IMG/VR virus record: IMGVR_UViG_3300042375_000272
Span: 1 to 29,285 of that record
Source of the DNA: a virus
DNA length: 29,285 nt
Direction: 5' to 3' (one strand)
The notes under the pieces are model-generated. The model was not told the DNA's origin. It saw only the letters and a list, made by a program, of their open reading frames with translations, and ran no database searches. The first letter of the stretch is position 1; the number at the start of each line of letters is the position of its first letter. The position numbers and the translations under genes were made by a program. Below, in pieces: positions 14,812-26,769 of the stretch.

Positions 14812-15168
14812 TTAGTATGTGTCATATATTTTCTTTAAGTCTTGATATTGATCTCTCAAACAAGAAGCACATGAAGTATATTCTAATCTCCCTGTTTGGA
14901 ATACTCTGTTGTGTGTTCTTTGCATTAGCATAGAATCTACTAACGATGTCTCTGCTTTCTTTAATCCTCCTTCACTTAACCAAAGATACTCATCCTCATT
15001 AAGGCAAAGTGGTTTCTTTCTATAAGACCAAAGTTCATTAAGTTTTGCTTTACGTTCATCACATCCACAATCTTCTCCCAATATAAACTTTGCCACCTTA
15101 TCTATTCCTGTTGCTTGGAGTACGTTCTCTATTGTATCCCCTAGTCCTGTTGCTTTTCTTTTAGCCAT
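14812..15168 (-). CDS. Cys-rich protein upstream of terminase
   Basis: A 118-residue protein with two cysteine groups: CGCDERKAKLNELW near residues 34-47 and SCASCLRDQYQDLKKIY near residues 99-115. A GxCGCDERK segment beside terS is something I have seen in other Bacteroidota phage genomes, without known function. The cysteines suggest metal binding. It overlaps the sigma-like gene by 28 nt and ends before the terS gap. A regulator of late expression or a packaging partner are both conceivable. Confidence 0.72.
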   Translation of the reverse strand: MAKRKATGLGDTIENVLQATGIDKVAKFILGEDCGCDERKAKLNELWSYRKKPLCLNEDEYLWLSEGGLKKAETSLVDSMLMQRTHNRVFQTGRLEYTSCASCLRDQYQDLKKIYDTY

Positions 15169-15665
15169 TCGTAATCTTCGTTTAAATAATCTTCATAGTC
15201 TTCATTAAGTAAACTCCTTAAGTGCTTTTTTGTTCTATTGGTGGTGTAAAATATACAAGATAGACTGATTCCTGTCTCTTTAGATAGTTCTCGCATTGAC
15301 TTGCCACTTGTCACGTATAGTTCGAATAGCATTTTATCAAACCAATCAACATTATTAAGTTCGTCTTTAACGCGTTTATTTAACTCTCCGTATGCAATTA
15401 TACTTTCAGTCTCGGAAAGCGCGTCAGAAACGGTCTTATCTAGTTCAAACGTTACAGGTTCTTTCTTTAAGAAGTCAAAGTAAATATTGCGTAATGTTAT
15501 CCATACGAATGACGTTGCAATCTTTTGGTCTGGTTTAATGTATTTATCTAATCGAAGGTACATTTCCTGCACAATGTCTTCAGCTTCTGTTTTAGCACCA
15601 AAGGACCGAGCGATATTCACCCAGTCCTTATGTTTTTGTGCTATTATTTCTATTTGCTTAATCAT
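15141..15665 (-). CDS. Sigma-70-like (ECF-type) transcription factor
   Basis: A 174-residue protein with the two-domain plan of small sigma factors. Region 2 covers residues 14-62, with the typical AEDIVQEMYLRL (28-39) and the -10-binding helix ATSFVWITLRNIYFDFLKK. Region 4 (110-150) has the helix-turn-helix GKSMRELSKETGISLSCIFYTTNRTKKHLR. It would direct host RNA polymerase to phage promoters, most likely those of the late block that starts immediately downstream. The C-terminus carries the repeat-like NEDYEDYLNEDYEW. It overlaps the OB-fold gene by 8 nt and the next gene by 28 nt. The fold call is firm; the target promoters are unknown. Confidence 0.85.
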   Translation of the reverse strand: MIKQIEIIAQKHKDWVNIARSFGAKTEAEDIVQEMYLRLDKYIKPDQKIATSFVWITLRNIYFDFLKKEPVTFELDKTVSDALSETESIIAYGELNKRVKDELNNVDWFDKMLFELYVTSGKSMRELSKETGISLSCIFYTTNRTKKHLRSLLNEDYEDYLNEDYEWLKEKQQD

Positions 15666-19421: not shown

Positions 19422-20830
19422 ACTATTCTTTTTAAAATTTGCATTTTTGCCCATGCTGGTTTAAATCCTTTATACTTTCCGTATTCTCTAAAATCATCTG
19501 CGTTTTTTAATTGGTGAAATATCCAATTTTTATTATATCCTTTTGCGATTGCTATTAATTCTAATTCTCTAAAATCTGCTTTTTCAATCCTGTTTTTTAA
19601 TCTAGTTTTAGATAGTTCTTGTAGTTCAACAATTATATCTTTTTCTTTTTCTTGGTCAGACTTTTCAAATACATGACCACACTCAGGACATTCCATGATT
19701 GATGCGTAAAGCAAATAACCACATTTACATTCTTTAATTGGTGCAGCACCTTCTTTCTTTTCTTTTTTAGATAGTGACCAGCTTCTAGGTTCTTCCCAGT
19801 AGTTATGTTGCCTTATATTATTACCAAAATCTAGAATAGTAAATGAATTTTTAGAACTTGTAACACGTGACCCACGACCAACCATTTGAAGAAATAAAGG
19901 TAAAGACTTTGTTGCTCTATAAAGTATTACTACTTCAATTGTAGGACAATCAAAACCTGTAGTTAAAATACCATAATTTGAAAGTATAGCTCCTTCTGTA
20001 TTTTCAAACCAATCTATTATTTCGTCACGATTACTCATGTAACAATCTACGTGCATTGCTGGAAGTCCTTTATCCACAAATGATTGTACTAATTCTTTTG
20101 ATGAATCTATATTTGGACAAAATACAATTGCTTTTTTACCATTACAAATTCTAGTATAATTGTCATAAACTCCATGAAATAGTTTTATTTCAGAATATTT
20201 ATCTGCTAAACTCTTTTCGTCGTAGTCACCTCCTTTTGTTTTTACACCTTTAAGGTCAATTTTAACGCCATAAGAAATAGGTTTTGATAAATTGCCTTTG
20301 TTTATTAATTCGGGTGTATCTATGACTTGAATAATATCTGTGTAAAATTCATCTAAAGCACGTTGTTTTCCTTCTCTAAATGGTGTAGCTGTTGCACCTA
20401 TTACATAAGTCTTTTCGTTTATGTGTTCAAAAAGATTATCAAAGATAGATTTATGTGCTTCATCTATAATAATTAAATCAAGACTATTAATCCATTCTTT
20501 CATTATATCTATTCTACGCATTATAGTCTGAATCATACCAACAAAAAGGGATTCGTTTAAATCCACCTTTTCATTTGGTTTAATTAATTGTGGATTCATA
20601 CCTAATTTTGTAAGTACACTATCCGATTGTGAAAATAATTCTTTTCTATCTGTAAGAATCAATACTTTATTTCCTTTTGTAAAGCTATTTCTAGTCATAT
20701 AAGAAAACATGATAGTTTTGCCGGAACCTGTGGGAGCACATAAAACTACTTTTTTATTTCCTTTTACAAAACTATTTCTTAGTTCTGCAATATATTTTTC
20801 TTGGTAATCTCTTAATTCTAATCTATCCAT
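19418..20830 (-). CDS. DEAH-box superfamily 2 helicase
   Basis: A 470-residue helicase with RDYQEKY (Q-motif-like, residues 7-13), Walker A APTGSGKT (32-39), DEAH box (123-126), GATATP motif III (145-150), and C-terminal motifs ILTTGFDCP (288-296) and QMVGRGSR (315-322). A CKCG...CPEC zinc ribbon sits at 368-384. The layout resembles phage helicases of the UvsW/RecG-like or type III restriction-like SF2 group. It would unwind or remodel branched DNA during replication, consistent with neighbours VRR-NUC (4-nt overlap) and primase-helicase (13-nt overlap). All key motifs are intact. Confidence 0.92.
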   Translation of the reverse strand: MDRLELRDYQEKYIAELRNSFVKGNKKVVLCAPTGSGKTIMFSYMTRNSFTKGNKVLILTDRKELFSQSDSVLTKLGMNPQLIKPNEKVDLNESLFVGMIQTIMRRIDIMKEWINSLDLIIIDEAHKSIFDNLFEHINEKTYVIGATATPFREGKQRALDEFYTDIIQVIDTPELINKGNLSKPISYGVKIDLKGVKTKGGDYDEKSLADKYSEIKLFHGVYDNYTRICNGKKAIVFCPNIDSSKELVQSFVDKGLPAMHVDCYMSNRDEIIDWFENTEGAILSNYGILTTGFDCPTIEVVILYRATKSLPLFLQMVGRGSRVTSSKNSFTILDFGNNIRQHNYWEEPRSWSLSKKEKKEGAAPIKECKCGYLLYASIMECPECGHVFEKSDQEKEKDIIVELQELSKTRLKNRIEKADFRELELIAIAKGYNKNWIFHQLKNADDFREYGKYKGFKPAWAKMQILKRIV

Positions 20831-22950
20831 GATTTCGTTTCATCTTTAAGTCCGTATTTTTCTTTTACTTTATATTTCCAGCCATCTTTCTTTTGAATTT
20901 GATCCCCGAAAATCTTCTTTAGCATAGTTCCAAAATTCTTCATGGAAAGTATTTTTTGCTTTGAATTGCTTTCTATTACATCTTTAATTGCAGTTGCAGT
21001 CATCAATATAAATCCTTCATCATCACTAGGTACTTCAAAGAATCTCAGTATTAATTCTTTTTCAAATGGTATAGTTTCAAATTCTTGAGATACTTCCATT
21101 AAGATATTTATCTCGTCTTTATCTAGCTGCCATTGAACGCCTGTAGTGTACATCCTATAAAGTTCCATAAACAATTCGTCTTTATCTACTGAATTATACA
21201 GCTCATGATTAATAACATCTACTTCAATTGGAAGAATACGTGTGTTACCCGTTGGGTCATTAATTACAGCTTTGTCATTTGTAGTTCCACAAAGTAAAGC
21301 AAGTCTTTTAAAGTCTTCATTATGCCTTCCGTATGGAGCACGTAATGAAAAGAAATTTTTAGATGTAAGTTCTTTAAATCTTTTTTCGTCTTGCTTAGAC
21401 TTACCTCCCATTTCATCATCTAAAACAATTAACTTTTCACACATCAAAAGTTCATCATCTTTACCTTTATCCATATTTGATTCTGCATAATATTTTTGCA
21501 AGCCAGCTGGAAGTAATCGTCTAAACCATTCAGTCTTTCCTGTATTTTGCCCACCTGTTAAACACAAAACTGAACGTACTGGATGTCCATCGTAGCAAGC
21601 AATAATTGAAATTAGCCATTTTCGAATCCATGTTTTTTTCATTGAACTTCTAGTGGATATTGTTTCAATTATCTTATCTATATTTCCTGTTGAATTTCTA
21701 TGCTTATTAGCTTCAATATATTGCTGAATAGGATTAAATTCTAGTGTAGCTTCGGACATTATAATTCTTTCAATTAAATCATATGTTACAGCATTATCAT
21801 CAAATGTCATACGAGCTTTTAAATACAAAGAATTAAAATGCTCTTTCTGCATTTCTTTACCATCAATCTCATATTTATGAGTGATTACATTTCTACGTAA
21901 TTGATGCTTTTTAAATATAAAATTTGAAACATTAATAATTATATTCTCCGTACCTGTTTGATGTCTTACATCTATATCATCTCTTTCGTATATTTCCTCT
22001 ACTAGTTCTTTTGCTTCCTCAATAGTTAGATTTTGTTTTTTAGAAAGTTCTATTGCAGATTCACTTTTTGAAACGCCGATTCTTTTATTCAGTGCAATTT
22101 CATTTACAGTCTTATTTGCAGAATATTTAGAAATATCTGCGCCAGCTTGTTTAAGATAAAAGTAAAAAGTTCCAGCAGTTATTCCTTGACCTTTTCTTTT
22201 TAAAAGATAGTCATAATTTGAATCACAAGTGTTAGCATCATATTTTAATGATAAGCTACTCATTTTATGAAAATATGATCTTCCTTCCTCTTTAAAAGTT
22301 TCAGCACAAGCTAATCCAAAACTCAACCAATCATTATAGTCTTCTAATACATTTGTTTGTACTTGGTCTACTAATTCACCAACTTCATTACTTGGAACTA
22401 TTATAGCTAATGATTTTGGTCTTAACGGCTTTTCAATTAATGATTGTGCTTTCTTAGATTTAGGATTAATATATAAATCTTCATCAAAAGTAATAAATCT
22501 AGCACTAGCTACATTTTTTGGTGCAGAATCTACTAATATACCAAACTTTGTTAAATAGTATTTTTCAATCCATCTATAACAATCTTTGTGCTTATCAGGA
22601 TTAACTTTAACTATTACAGCAAAACCATTGCCACCTACAGACTTCATACAACAGTATGTATAAGGATCATTAATTAAAGCAGAATTATCTGAAAAATTAT
22701 CAATATCTACACACATAAAACCACTATGCACTAGTAAAGATTTTTCATTTCTTTCTTTGAAAGCTCCGCCAATAGTTACGGCTGGCAATTTATCTTTTAA
22801 AATTTTTTGAATACTTTTATCTTTTTCTGCTCTTATTGGTGCGATTAATTCTCTCCAATATCCATTTTTAACTCTATCAATAAATACATCAATAGTACTT
22901 TCTTCTAAAGGATTTTTAACATCCTTAACACTTCTCCAATAACTAATCAT
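20818..22950 (-). CDS. Primase-helicase (BT4734/VirE-type)
   Basis: A 710-residue replication protein with three parts. The N-terminal third (about residues 1-165) has the primase-like BT4734/VirE N domain, with FMCVDIDNF (D82, D84), MKSVGGNGFAVIVKV (102-116) and SARFITFDED (149-158). A PriCT-like helical region spans about 200-270 (NDWLSFGLACAETFKEEG...GITAGTFYFYLKQAG). The C-terminal part is a VirE-type SF3-like helicase: Walker A LTGGQNTGKTEW (464-475), Walker B KLIVLDDE (506-513), sensor LCGTTND (553-559), and Arg finger R571. It would prime and unwind at the origin; the iteron-like region lies about 0.7 kb upstream. Intact motifs suggest full activity. Confidence 0.9.
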   Translation of the reverse strand: MISYWRSVKDVKNPLEESTIDVFIDRVKNGYWRELIAPIRAEKDKSIQKILKDKLPAVTIGGAFKERNEKSLLVHSGFMCVDIDNFSDNSALINDPYTYCCMKSVGGNGFAVIVKVNPDKHKDCYRWIEKYYLTKFGILVDSAPKNVASARFITFDEDLYINPKSKKAQSLIEKPLRPKSLAIIVPSNEVGELVDQVQTNVLEDYNDWLSFGLACAETFKEEGRSYFHKMSSLSLKYDANTCDSNYDYLLKRKGQGITAGTFYFYLKQAGADISKYSANKTVNEIALNKRIGVSKSESAIELSKKQNLTIEEAKELVEEIYERDDIDVRHQTGTENIIINVSNFIFKKHQLRRNVITHKYEIDGKEMQKEHFNSLYLKARMTFDDNAVTYDLIERIIMSEATLEFNPIQQYIEANKHRNSTGNIDKIIETISTRSSMKKTWIRKWLISIIACYDGHPVRSVLCLTGGQNTGKTEWFRRLLPAGLQKYYAESNMDKGKDDELLMCEKLIVLDDEMGGKSKQDEKRFKELTSKNFFSLRAPYGRHNEDFKRLALLCGTTNDKAVINDPTGNTRILPIEVDVINHELYNSVDKDELFMELYRMYTTGVQWQLDKDEINILMEVSQEFETIPFEKELILRFFEVPSDDEGFILMTATAIKDVIESNSKQKILSMKNFGTMLKKIFGDQIQKKDGWKYKVKEKYGLKDETKSWID

Positions 22951-23225
22951 ATTACTTTTAAATTATCTACTCTGTTATTAAACACATCTTTATCTATCCT
23001 AGTTACTTTCTTAAATGATTCACTTATAAACTTCCTAGCAACTTCAGACGCCAAAAATACATCTTTTTTTCTACTATTATTCTCTAGTGTCAAAGTTACT
23101 TTTGTTTTATATTGATTGCATTTTATAGGCTTTAAGTTACGATTAGTGTTTCTATTCATAACATTACCAAAGTTACTTATGTAATAATGTTCTTCTAGGG
23201 GCTTCCATTCTTCTACTAATAACAT
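22947..23225 (-). CDS. NUMOD4/HNH-like protein, degenerate nuclease
   Basis: A 92-residue protein that opens with a NUMOD4 motif (EEWKPLEEHYYISNFGNVMNRNTNR) and ends in VTRIDKDVFNNRVDNLKVI. The latter lines up with the HNH core 'VHHIDGNKxNNRxxNL', but the two His are Thr-Arg. The Asn/Asp framework is kept while the catalytic His pair is gone. Intact relatives are phage homing endonucleases; this copy probably binds DNA but does not cut. It overlaps the lipoprotein gene by 10 nt and the primase by 4 nt, so it is embedded in the replication operon rather than inserted freely. Confidence 0.82.
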   Translation of the reverse strand: MLLVEEWKPLEEHYYISNFGNVMNRNTNRNLKPIKCNQYKTKVTLTLENNSRKKDVFLASEVARKFISESFKKVTRIDKDVFNNRVDNLKVI

Positions 23226-23476
23226 TCTCCTTCTTTTTTAGAATAAATAGAATAATAACTTTCATAAGAATATTGTTTTTGCCAATTAGAACAATCATTA
23301 ACAGTTGTTATTGTAGCGAAATATGTGGTTTGATGTCCAGGGTGACTATACTTTGCCCTAACAATATTTACTATTCTATCACAACCACAATTTTTAACAG
23401 GCTGTGGTGTTACCTCTTCTTTCTTACAGCTAAACAATCCAATTGCTAATGCTGATACTAATACTAATTTTTTCAT
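23216..23476 (-). CDS. Phage-encoded lipoprotein
   Basis: An 86-residue protein with a lipoprotein signal: MKKLVLVSALAIGLFSCKKEE, lipobox LFSC with Cys at residue 17. The mature part has several further cysteines (NCGCDR, DCSNW, GECY), which may form disulfides in the periplasm. Short lipoproteins of phages are often superinfection-exclusion factors that sit in the envelope. It starts about 18 nt after the end of the small RNA's T run and is the first gene of the replication operon. The function remains an inference. Confidence 0.8.
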   Translation of the reverse strand: MKKLVLVSALAIGLFSCKKEEVTPQPVKNCGCDRIVNIVRAKYSHPGHQTTYFATITTVNDCSNWQKQYSYESYYSIYSKKEGECY

Positions 23477-23493: not shown

Positions 23494-23537
23494 AAAAAAC
23501 CCCGAGTATCAGTGGTGGAAGTCACGTCAACTCGAGG
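23494..23537 (-). terminator. Intrinsic terminator formed by hairpin B
   Basis: An 8-bp stem (CCTCGAGT with ACTCGGGG, one G-U) followed by six Ts on the minus strand, with four As before the stem. The large 22-nt loop contains the kissing-loop sequence. It precedes the lipoprotein gene, so it could also be an attenuator controlling the replication operon. Confidence 0.7.
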
Positions 23538-23578
23538 ATTTTAATAAAGTTCTTCTCTGTAGCTTCCACTCTACGAGG
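23494..23578 (-). ncRNA. Predicted ~80-nt small RNA or leader with kissing loops
   Basis: A promoter (23609-23580) leads directly into two hairpins and a T6 stretch. Hairpin A: stem GUAG/CUAC (23574-23571, 23562-23559), 8-nt loop A-GUGGAAG. Hairpin B: outer stem CCUCGAGU/ACUCGGGG (23537-23530, 23507-23500), with a U-G pair that fits minus-strand RNA; inner GUG/CAC closes the 8-nt loop A-CUUCCAC. The two loops are complementary over 7 nt. The T run at 23499-23494 makes hairpin B an intrinsic terminator. It is either a free RNA or an attenuating leader of the lipoprotein and replication genes. No known RNA family was recognised. Confidence 0.6.
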
Positions 23579-23579
23579 A

Positions 23580-23609
23580 CAAATATACAACCATTTTTTA
23601 TATATGCAA
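23580..23609 (-). promoter_or_regulatory. Bacteroidota-type promoter for the small RNA / replication operon
   Basis: The minus strand reads TTG (23609-23607), a 19-nt spacer, then TATATTTG (23587-23580). This is an exact fit to the Bacteroidota -33/-7 arrangement. The transcription start should fall near 23577-23573, at the foot of hairpin A. Confidence 0.75.
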
Positions 23610-23633: not shown

Positions 23634-23910
23634 GGTATAAGGATATAGGGTAGGTAGTGGATAGAATTTAGTTCTACCTTATATAGCTAAGCCCTTGCTA
23701 CTATTGACTTACAACAAAAAGTATAAGGTATATAAGATAGAATTACTAATATTTAATAAATTATAAAATATATATATAAATAATATTTTTTTATTTTTTT
23801 ATTTGTAGAATTGTTGCAATACATCCTTTTCTACCTTATATCCCTCACCTAGTTGATTTTTAGATAGTTGCAAAGCATTCTACCTTATATCTACCTTATA
23901 TACCCTTATA
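23634..23910. other. Iteron-like repeat array with AT-rich core, candidate replication origin
   Basis: A noncoding stretch containing TACCTTATA exactly at 23675-23683, 23832-23840, 23881-23889 and 23892-23900, and inverted (TATAAGGTA) at 23722-23730. Near copies lie at 23731-23739, 23901-23910 and 23636-23645. The direct copies share a longer core TCTACCTTATAT; neighbouring copies are spaced 9-11 bp, about one helical turn. Between them, 23743-23808 is almost purely A/T. This is the layout of iterons plus a DNA unwinding element, and primase-helicase and helicase genes follow. It could instead be an operator cluster. Confidence 0.6.
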
Positions 23911-25935: not shown

Positions 25936-26769
25936 TTAATTAGCTTTACAAAAACAATCGGTTTCATAATCAAATAAATCACATTGTAATTTAGATAACT
26001 CATATAAATCTTCCGCTTTTCGGAATGCTTTTTTGGATAATTCTTTTAGTTCACTTACACTTTTATTTGTTCTTAAATCAAATCTTGGTATTTGTTCGGA
26101 ACTATATTTATCTTCCATTTCTTGCCACCAATCAGAAACACTTGGATTTTCTTTTACAATAGTTAATCTTTTACGTAATGATTTTTTAAAACATAAATCA
26201 CAATTACCCTCGTAATCTTTTAATCCTAAGTCAAAAGATTGCATATCCCACCATTTACGAATAAACTTTTGATCAACTCTCAACTCATCGCATAATGGGT
26301 AAATTATTTGTTCTTTTTCTGCTGTATTTGATTTTCTATGTTCTTCATCTGCCCTAATTCCAATTATCCTATAAACATCAAAATCACTAAAATTTTCACG
26401 AATATATGAATCTACTGGTCTTTGTTTTAATTCACGTGTACAATTAGGCGCAGTATTATTTGGTAATGGATATTTTTTAAACATATCTTCAAAAGGCTCT
26501 CCATTTCTTGATGCTGTATTAAAATCAATAATTTTATAAGTAGTACCAATACCTTTTTCATGTATTATTTTAGCTTCCAACCAAAGAATATTCAATCCCC
26601 ATTTTTTATCGCAAGTATCAATAAACTTTAATGTTTCCTCTTTTTCTTTACCTGTATTTAAAAAAACAAATAATACGTTTTCATATTTTGGATTTTCTTT
26701 AATGTATTTCGCTAAAAACATTGACGTTCTACCTCCAGAAGTCATTACAATATAAAGTTTTTCTTTCAT
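25936..26769 (-). CDS. Adenine nucleotide alpha-hydrolase / PAPS-reductase-like protein
   Basis: A 277-residue protein with the PP-loop TSGGRTSMF at residues 10-18, then LNTGKEKEETLKF near 38-49, CTRELKQRPVDSYIRE (110-125), and a C-terminal part with Cys pair CDLC (190-193). This layout matches the phage phosphoadenosine-phosphosulfate-reductase-like family (adenine nucleotide alpha-hydrolases). Such proteins may modify tRNA, DNA or small molecules; sulfate reduction itself is not implied. The family name is descriptive of the fold. It starts with a 4-nt overlap with the preceding gene, and small zinc-binding proteins follow. Confidence 0.82.
   Translation of the reverse strand: MKEKLYIVMTSGGRTSMFLAKYIKENPKYENVLFVFLNTGKEKEETLKFIDTCDKKWGLNILWLEAKIIHEKGIGTTYKIIDFNTASRNGEPFEDMFKKYPLPNNTAPNCTRELKQRPVDSYIRENFSDFDVYRIIGIRADEEHRKSNTAEKEQIIYPLCDELRVDQKFIRKWWDMQSFDLGLKDYEGNCDLCFKKSLRKRLTIVKENPSVSDWWQEMEDKYSSEQIPRFDLRTNKSVSELKELSKKAFRKAEDLYELSKLQCDLFDYETDCFCKAN

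Follow-up and report, generated by a model that had tools for sequence, protein, structure and literature searches.

The DNA analysed here, referred to as the window, is the whole 29,285-nt stretch of the virus record IMGVR_UViG_3300042375_000272. The element under study lies on its minus strand, between positions 23609 and 23494, where a Bacteroidota-type promoter is followed by a first hairpin (A), a linker and a terminator hairpin (B). Three genes come after it on the same strand. The first (23216-23476 in the ORF list), whose ATG is found 17 nt past the T tract, encodes an 86-aa predicted lipoprotein that matches no Pfam family. The second (22947-23225) encodes a 92-aa protein with a weak NUMOD4 motif (Pfam E 4e-4, narrowly missing the curated cut-off) and no HNH match, and is perhaps what is left of a homing endonuclease of the kind that the RNA precedes in relatives. 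The third (20818-22950) is a primase-helicase with BT4734-like N, PriCT_2 and VapE domains in Pfam. Upstream of the promoter, an AT-rich region (23668-23902) with four near-copies of TTCTACCTTATATA and inverted copies of it is a candidate origin, and a similar AT-rich region is present in the related contigs L002-L006. Elsewhere in the window, an ORF at 15141-15665 resembles, by eye, a sigma-70 region 2 protein, and 25936-26769 encodes a PAPS-reductase-like protein according to Pfam. The region shows no DNA similarity to cultured phages; promoter type and cultured relatives of the element point to Bacteroidota as the host phylum.

The predicted promoter (23580-23609), called from its consensus, comprises a -33 TTG (23609-23607), a 19-nt spacer and the -7 element TATATTTG (23587-23580). 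Hairpin A (23555-23577), predicted to stand at the 5′ end of the transcript, folds as CTC-GTAG[AGTGGAAG]CTAC-a-GAG, with 7 bp and a 1-nt bulge, and its whole 8-nt loop, A-GUGGAAG (23570-23563), contains the kissing sequence x, GUGGAAG (23563-23569). After a linker that is A-rich and then U-rich (23538-23554), hairpin B (23500-23537) has the form CCTCGAGT-UGAC-GUG[ACUUCCAC]CAC-UGAU-ACUCGGGG, that is, an 8-bp outer stem, a symmetric 4x4 internal loop (UGAC/UGAU) in which tandem sheared G-A pairs are possible, a 3-bp inner stem and an 8-nt loop, A-CUUCCAC, with the complementary kissing sequence x′, CUUCCAC (23515-23521). Six Ts (23494-23499) make up the predicted intrinsic terminator tail of hairpin B. 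The predicted leader RNA between promoter and terminator measures ~80-85 nt, and the G+C-rich hairpin B with its T6 (23537-23494) stands between the promoter and the ATG at 23476, as in attenuator leaders. Both hairpins were recovered by folding prediction. The first-pass annotation had described this promoter, the two hairpins, the six Ts, two 8-nt loops complementary over seven bases and a U-G pair in the outer stem of hairpin B, and each of these is present on the minus strand as claimed; in the relative L434 the U-G pair is replaced by U-A.

How much weight should be given to two matching loops? The free 7-nt duplex is predicted at -9.6 kcal/mol, and a 7-nt match between two random 8-nt loops of the same composition has a chance probability of ~0.0007. 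Nevertheless, the folding energy of the element is ordinary (z ~ -1) and an AT-rich repeat region adjoins it, as might be expected if it were an accident or a feature of the DNA, such as a cruciform, a part of the origin, or a plain terminator whose loop happens to match. Because the energy is unremarkable, it is conservation in relatives that must decide, and that lifts the case above chance. At both the gathering and the loose threshold of Rfam 15, no family matches the window element, the best sub-threshold match over it being atoC (16.6 bits vs 50).

Seven viral contigs were fetched by similarity to the primase of the operon, and the region upstream of the primase was read without selection for complementarity or for a promoter. 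Six of the contigs include this region, and four of them (L003, L004, L005 and L008) carry the same architecture. Their loops, CGTGGAAA and TATTCCACGC in L003, CGTGAGAA and AATCTCACGC in L005, AAGTACAG and CTGTACT in L004, and AGGGCAGA and ACTGCCCT in L008, differ among the loci and are complementary within each of them, and a compensatory double change separates those of L003 from those of L005. In the latter two contigs the RNA is located directly before the primase-helicase gene, a position that makes an attenuator of the replication operon, as the first-pass annotation had proposed, the best reading of the context. In the close relatives L002 and L006 a TATATTTG element also stands shortly before the primase, but a short ORF (MKKMILANLKEFFE...) follows it in place of the RNA. 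In a related primase group, GTGCAGT...ACTGCAC is found between the TATATTTG element and the primase in a different layout (L460 from 1395, L464 from 4248), possibly a divergent variant of the element.

Beyond the primase locus, hairpin B was found in two frames: type I, UUAGUAGG-loop-CCGAAA, whose internal module AGUA/GAA resembles by inspection a bulged-G or loop-E module, and type II, UGAC-NNN-loop-NNN-UGAY, to which the window belongs. Pattern scans for type I and a generic scanner together gave ~63 distinct phage elements with ~50 loop sequences. The first broad pattern scans returned mostly chance matches, and members were separated from these by the combination of promoter, hairpin A and loop complementarity, with reversed sequence and permuted loops as controls. 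Over 4.96 Mb, the scanner, which required the promoter element and whose set is partly selected for complementarity, produced 52 matches at a score of at least 22, compared with 4 in reversed sequence. The criteria for type I loci were the hairpin-B frame TTAGTAGG..CCGAAA, a T-run and a promoter, complementarity being ignored; a loop match of at least 6 nt in the upstream hairpin was present in 31 of the 44 loci with promoter and terminator (permuted mean 3.9, maximum 9), and seven more had the match with a stem A of 3 bp. The same frame without a promoter showed a loop match in none of 37 loci. All 63 collected relatives have a TAnnTTTG-type element before hairpin A, at a median of 5 nt from the stem, this element having been required by the scanner. 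Of 54 distinct linkers, 30 contain the motif A[AG]A[AC][AT]TT (shuffled mean 5.3, maximum 12), to which the linker of the window has no exact match.

Alignment A2 contains six window-type members (the window, L434, two from L427, L118 and the phage mumin6-4); 99.2% of its cells are paired, 14 pairs are double-changed and none of 500 shuffles was as good, figures to be read knowing that A2 and A3 were partly selected for complementarity and that the shuffles ignore relatedness. In slid controls of A2 the pairing collapses. Double changes affect three pairs of its kissing helix (100% paired), two of the four aligned stem pairs of hairpin A (100% paired) and, in hairpin B, six of the eight outer and all three inner pairs. 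In alignment A3, made of 14 type I blocks selected for at least six matching letters, the kissing helix is 92% paired with five double-changed pairs. A covariance model (R1) from which the kissing pairs had been left out matched L107 as well as L474, which the scanner had missed and whose loops AGTGGTAG and ACTACCAC are complementary. Coordinated loop changes separate the pairs L003/L005, window/L427 and L496/L499. The strongest single case is provided by cultured phages that are 92% identical: between mumin6-4 and hattifnatt9-1/lillamy9-1, loop A changes from GUGGAAC to GUGAGAC and loop B follows in step, from GUUCCAC to GUCUCAC. The exchange of GUGGA for GUGAG in loop A, mirrored in loop B, is seen in two different backgrounds, L003/L005 and mumin6-4/hattifnatt9-1.

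Two complementary hairpin loops that covary are what is expected of an intramolecular kissing loop. The first-pass annotation had named loops varying in related phages without keeping complementarity as the outcome that would speak against its kissing-loop RNA; the loops vary widely and complementarity is kept, and the kissing-loop reading is well supported by this comparison of sequences. Compensatory loop changes in several lineages, a promoter and a start codon fixed on the same strand and the occurrence of the element before homing endonucleases leave an accidental match or a DNA-level feature hardly credible, covariation refuting it barring a mutational artefact. One long duplex unfolding both hairpins was also considered and is less likely, as 51 of 63 complementary runs are confined to loop A.

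The original observation is therefore correct, and it is wider than first described. Several contigs hold two elements with different loops (L017, L107, L118, L124, L427, L496 and mumin6-4), and an identical copy of the element precedes an endonuclease gene in 34 records of cultured Flavobacterium phages. As for bacteria, none of the matches listed by a pattern scan of their genomes was a convincing kissing element, 400 Flavobacteriaceae genomes contained a single match to the type I pattern (judged from its sequence to be chance), and R1 matched none of 301 Flavobacteriaceae genomes, a set with no positive control among them. The elements seem to be confined to phages. We found no described kissing attenuator of Bacteroidota phages in the open-access literature, and the kissing-loop leader RNA is a real class of putative phage gene-control RNA that has apparently gone undescribed.

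An ORF starts within 90 nt after hairpin B in all 63 elements, at a median of 18 nt. Pfam, run on 30 of the downstream proteins, identified on the replication side VapE/PriCT and DUF3987 primase-helicases together with ResIII/SNF2 and PIF1 helicases, a share of primases that is inflated by the many contigs fetched by primase. Homing-type endonucleases (NUMOD4-HNH, GIY-YIG, T5orf172) form another part, and the remainder includes DUF6291, HTH_36, one MT-A70 and small unknowns. Some downstream proteins, including that of the first gene in the window, are lipoprotein-like by sequence.

In part of the class, the loop-A sequence is found once more just before the start codon. This recurrence affects 10 of the 63 elements (permuted mean 0.7, maximum 4) and 15 of 39 type I elements, and is absent in the window; examples are the loop AAGTACAG with AAGTACAGTATG, GGTACAG with GGTACAGTATG and TGGGCATA with AGGGCATAAATG. 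Type I elements with the start-site copy have the start codon 19-26 nt past the stem and weaker U-tracts (p = 0.012, in a comparison where a few leaders, L056 and L166, have a doubtful stem end), and elements without it tend toward long U-runs. Because of the copy of x at the start site, loop B of these elements has two possible partners, loop A and the ribosome start region. On the simplest reading, one kissing module might have two outputs, termination or start-site masking, as in riboswitches.

What would such a leader do? In our judgement it is probably a cis-acting kissing-loop attenuator of early/replication or homing-endonuclease genes and belongs to a widespread class of phage leader RNAs. 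Host-type RNA polymerase would start a few bases before hairpin A, which would fold once the polymerase leaves the promoter, and loop A would then capture loop B by 7 bp. Hairpin B would be the intrinsic terminator placed just before the first codon of the downstream gene. The consequences would be two: i) at the U-tract, the kissing contact and the internal module of hairpin B would jointly determine what becomes of the transcript, and ii) where x is repeated at the start site, the kissing fold would set the fate of the ribosome at the start codon. The switch might be triggered by a factor of the phage or the host, or by the short terminated RNA swapping loops in trans, and the attenuator may perhaps also act in trans. 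We infer that the RNA is produced, that it terminates at B, that read-through depends on kissing and that loop B is the object of a competition between loop A and the start site. Against the attenuator it must be said that intramolecular kissing alone does not prevent terminator formation, and that most elements, that of the window included, have no start-site copy.

A more elaborate, phage-specific arrangement can be imagined, in which x′ chooses between loop x and the start-site x, the short RNA swaps partners in trans and each element uses a private 7-letter code. We put this three-part switch forward tentatively, as a possibility well short of probable; if true, every phage or element would possess a freely evolving code of its own, like an RNA immunity or dosage system.

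Termination and start-site masking also resemble the two expression platforms of riboswitches, and loop-loop packing is typical of purine-type riboswitches. The kissing fold and the internal module (AGUA/GAA or UGAC/UGAU) might thus constitute an aptamer for a metabolite or protein that signals the stage of infection. Indeed, the members have in common a non-Watson-Crick module located 2-3 bp below the kissing loop, while the loop letters vary, although in type I this module belonged to the search pattern. However, riboswitch families of Rfam gave zero matches, no ligand is suggested, a clear pocket of invariant unpaired letters is not seen beyond the internal loop and the genes that follow are diverse, which makes a sensor of this sort quite improbable.

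A terminator hairpin that kisses a hairpin of its own leader through drifting, matched loops would supply natural orthogonal RNA regulators. Little is known about the gene-control RNAs of Bacteroidota phages, and this class is compact, recognisable and tied to replication and homing-endonuclease genes; because it is present in cultured Flavobacterium phages, it is testable at once.

Several known systems bear on how the RNA may work. In the prophage Gifsy-1, a phage promoter yields both IsrK, a short terminated RNA, and a read-through mRNA that is translationally silent until IsrK turns it on (PMC4825925). By analogy, the short terminated RNA containing A and B could be a stable small RNA with targets in trans, either the read-through mRNA or a related phage that enters the cell, the exchange between loop A and loop B activating or repressing and the variable loops making it specific to each element. 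Promoter and terminator do bracket an RNA of ~85 nt, the start-site copies of x in a subfamily offer loop B a second partner, and two elements with different loops per contig are expected if cross-talk is avoided. However, each loop 7-mer of the window occurs only once on the minus strand of the 29-kb contig, no further target or partner being found on that strand, A and B are already satisfied within one molecule, with which trans pairing must compete, and most members have no start-site copy. We regard action in trans of this kind as unlikely. Shared with IsrK would be the phage promoter, the short terminated RNA and the read-through mRNA from that promoter. In the IsrK case leader sequence base-pairs with a region further along this mRNA and governs its translation, a candidate function here for the start-site copies of x, which 15 of 39 type I elements have and the window does not. 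IsrK differs in its long alternative helices and trans pairing, compared with loop-loop contacts here, and in sequence, host phylum and gene.

Processive antitermination of the HK022 put type would have the two-hairpin RNA stay on its polymerase and carry it past hairpin B and later terminators. HK022 put is not known to have a U-tract terminator at its foot. The RNA putL, ~73 nt long, has two stem-loops with internal non-canonical pairs, follows an early promoter and is bound to RNA polymerase (PMC9378689). Likewise, the phage RNAs described here place two stem-loops directly after a promoter whose early character is suggested by the replication genes, matching putL in size (~70-85 nt), place and build, and the internal loop of hairpin B is conserved. 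Nevertheless, a loop-loop pair is not described for put (PMC9378689), and recurrence immediately ahead of individual genes, such as those of homing endonucleases, fits a local switch better. A put-like function has in our opinion only a slim chance of being correct. HK022 put acts by binding the zinc-binding domain of the RNA polymerase beta′ subunit, a contact that would have to be assumed for the RNA studied here.

Homing-endonuclease genes of the T4 type (I-TevI, segB, mobE) offer another precedent, since upstream hairpins and a dedicated promoter limit their expression (PMC2988022). RNA hairpins and an own promoter before such genes are a common trait. In T4 the hairpins make the ribosome site inaccessible on transcripts that come from upstream, and do not form on the late transcript, whereas those of the present class lie inside the transcript, kiss each other and also lead replication genes.

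Finally, the first-pass annotation had invited a comparison with plasmid copy-number RNAs. In an antisense RNA of the ColE1 or pT181 type the partner should come from the opposite strand. The window has its two loops inside 55 nt of minus-strand sequence, in one transcript that needs no antisense promoter. The analogy fails in this respect because its defining feature, an antisense partner from the opposite strand, is absent, and many relatives precede homing endonucleases rather than adjoin an origin. In pT181-type attenuators, ColE1 and CopA/CopT, loop-loop pairing gives specificity and the variable loops stay complementary; it is this trait, loop-loop pairing through variable loops that are kept complementary, that the phage leader RNAs share with them.
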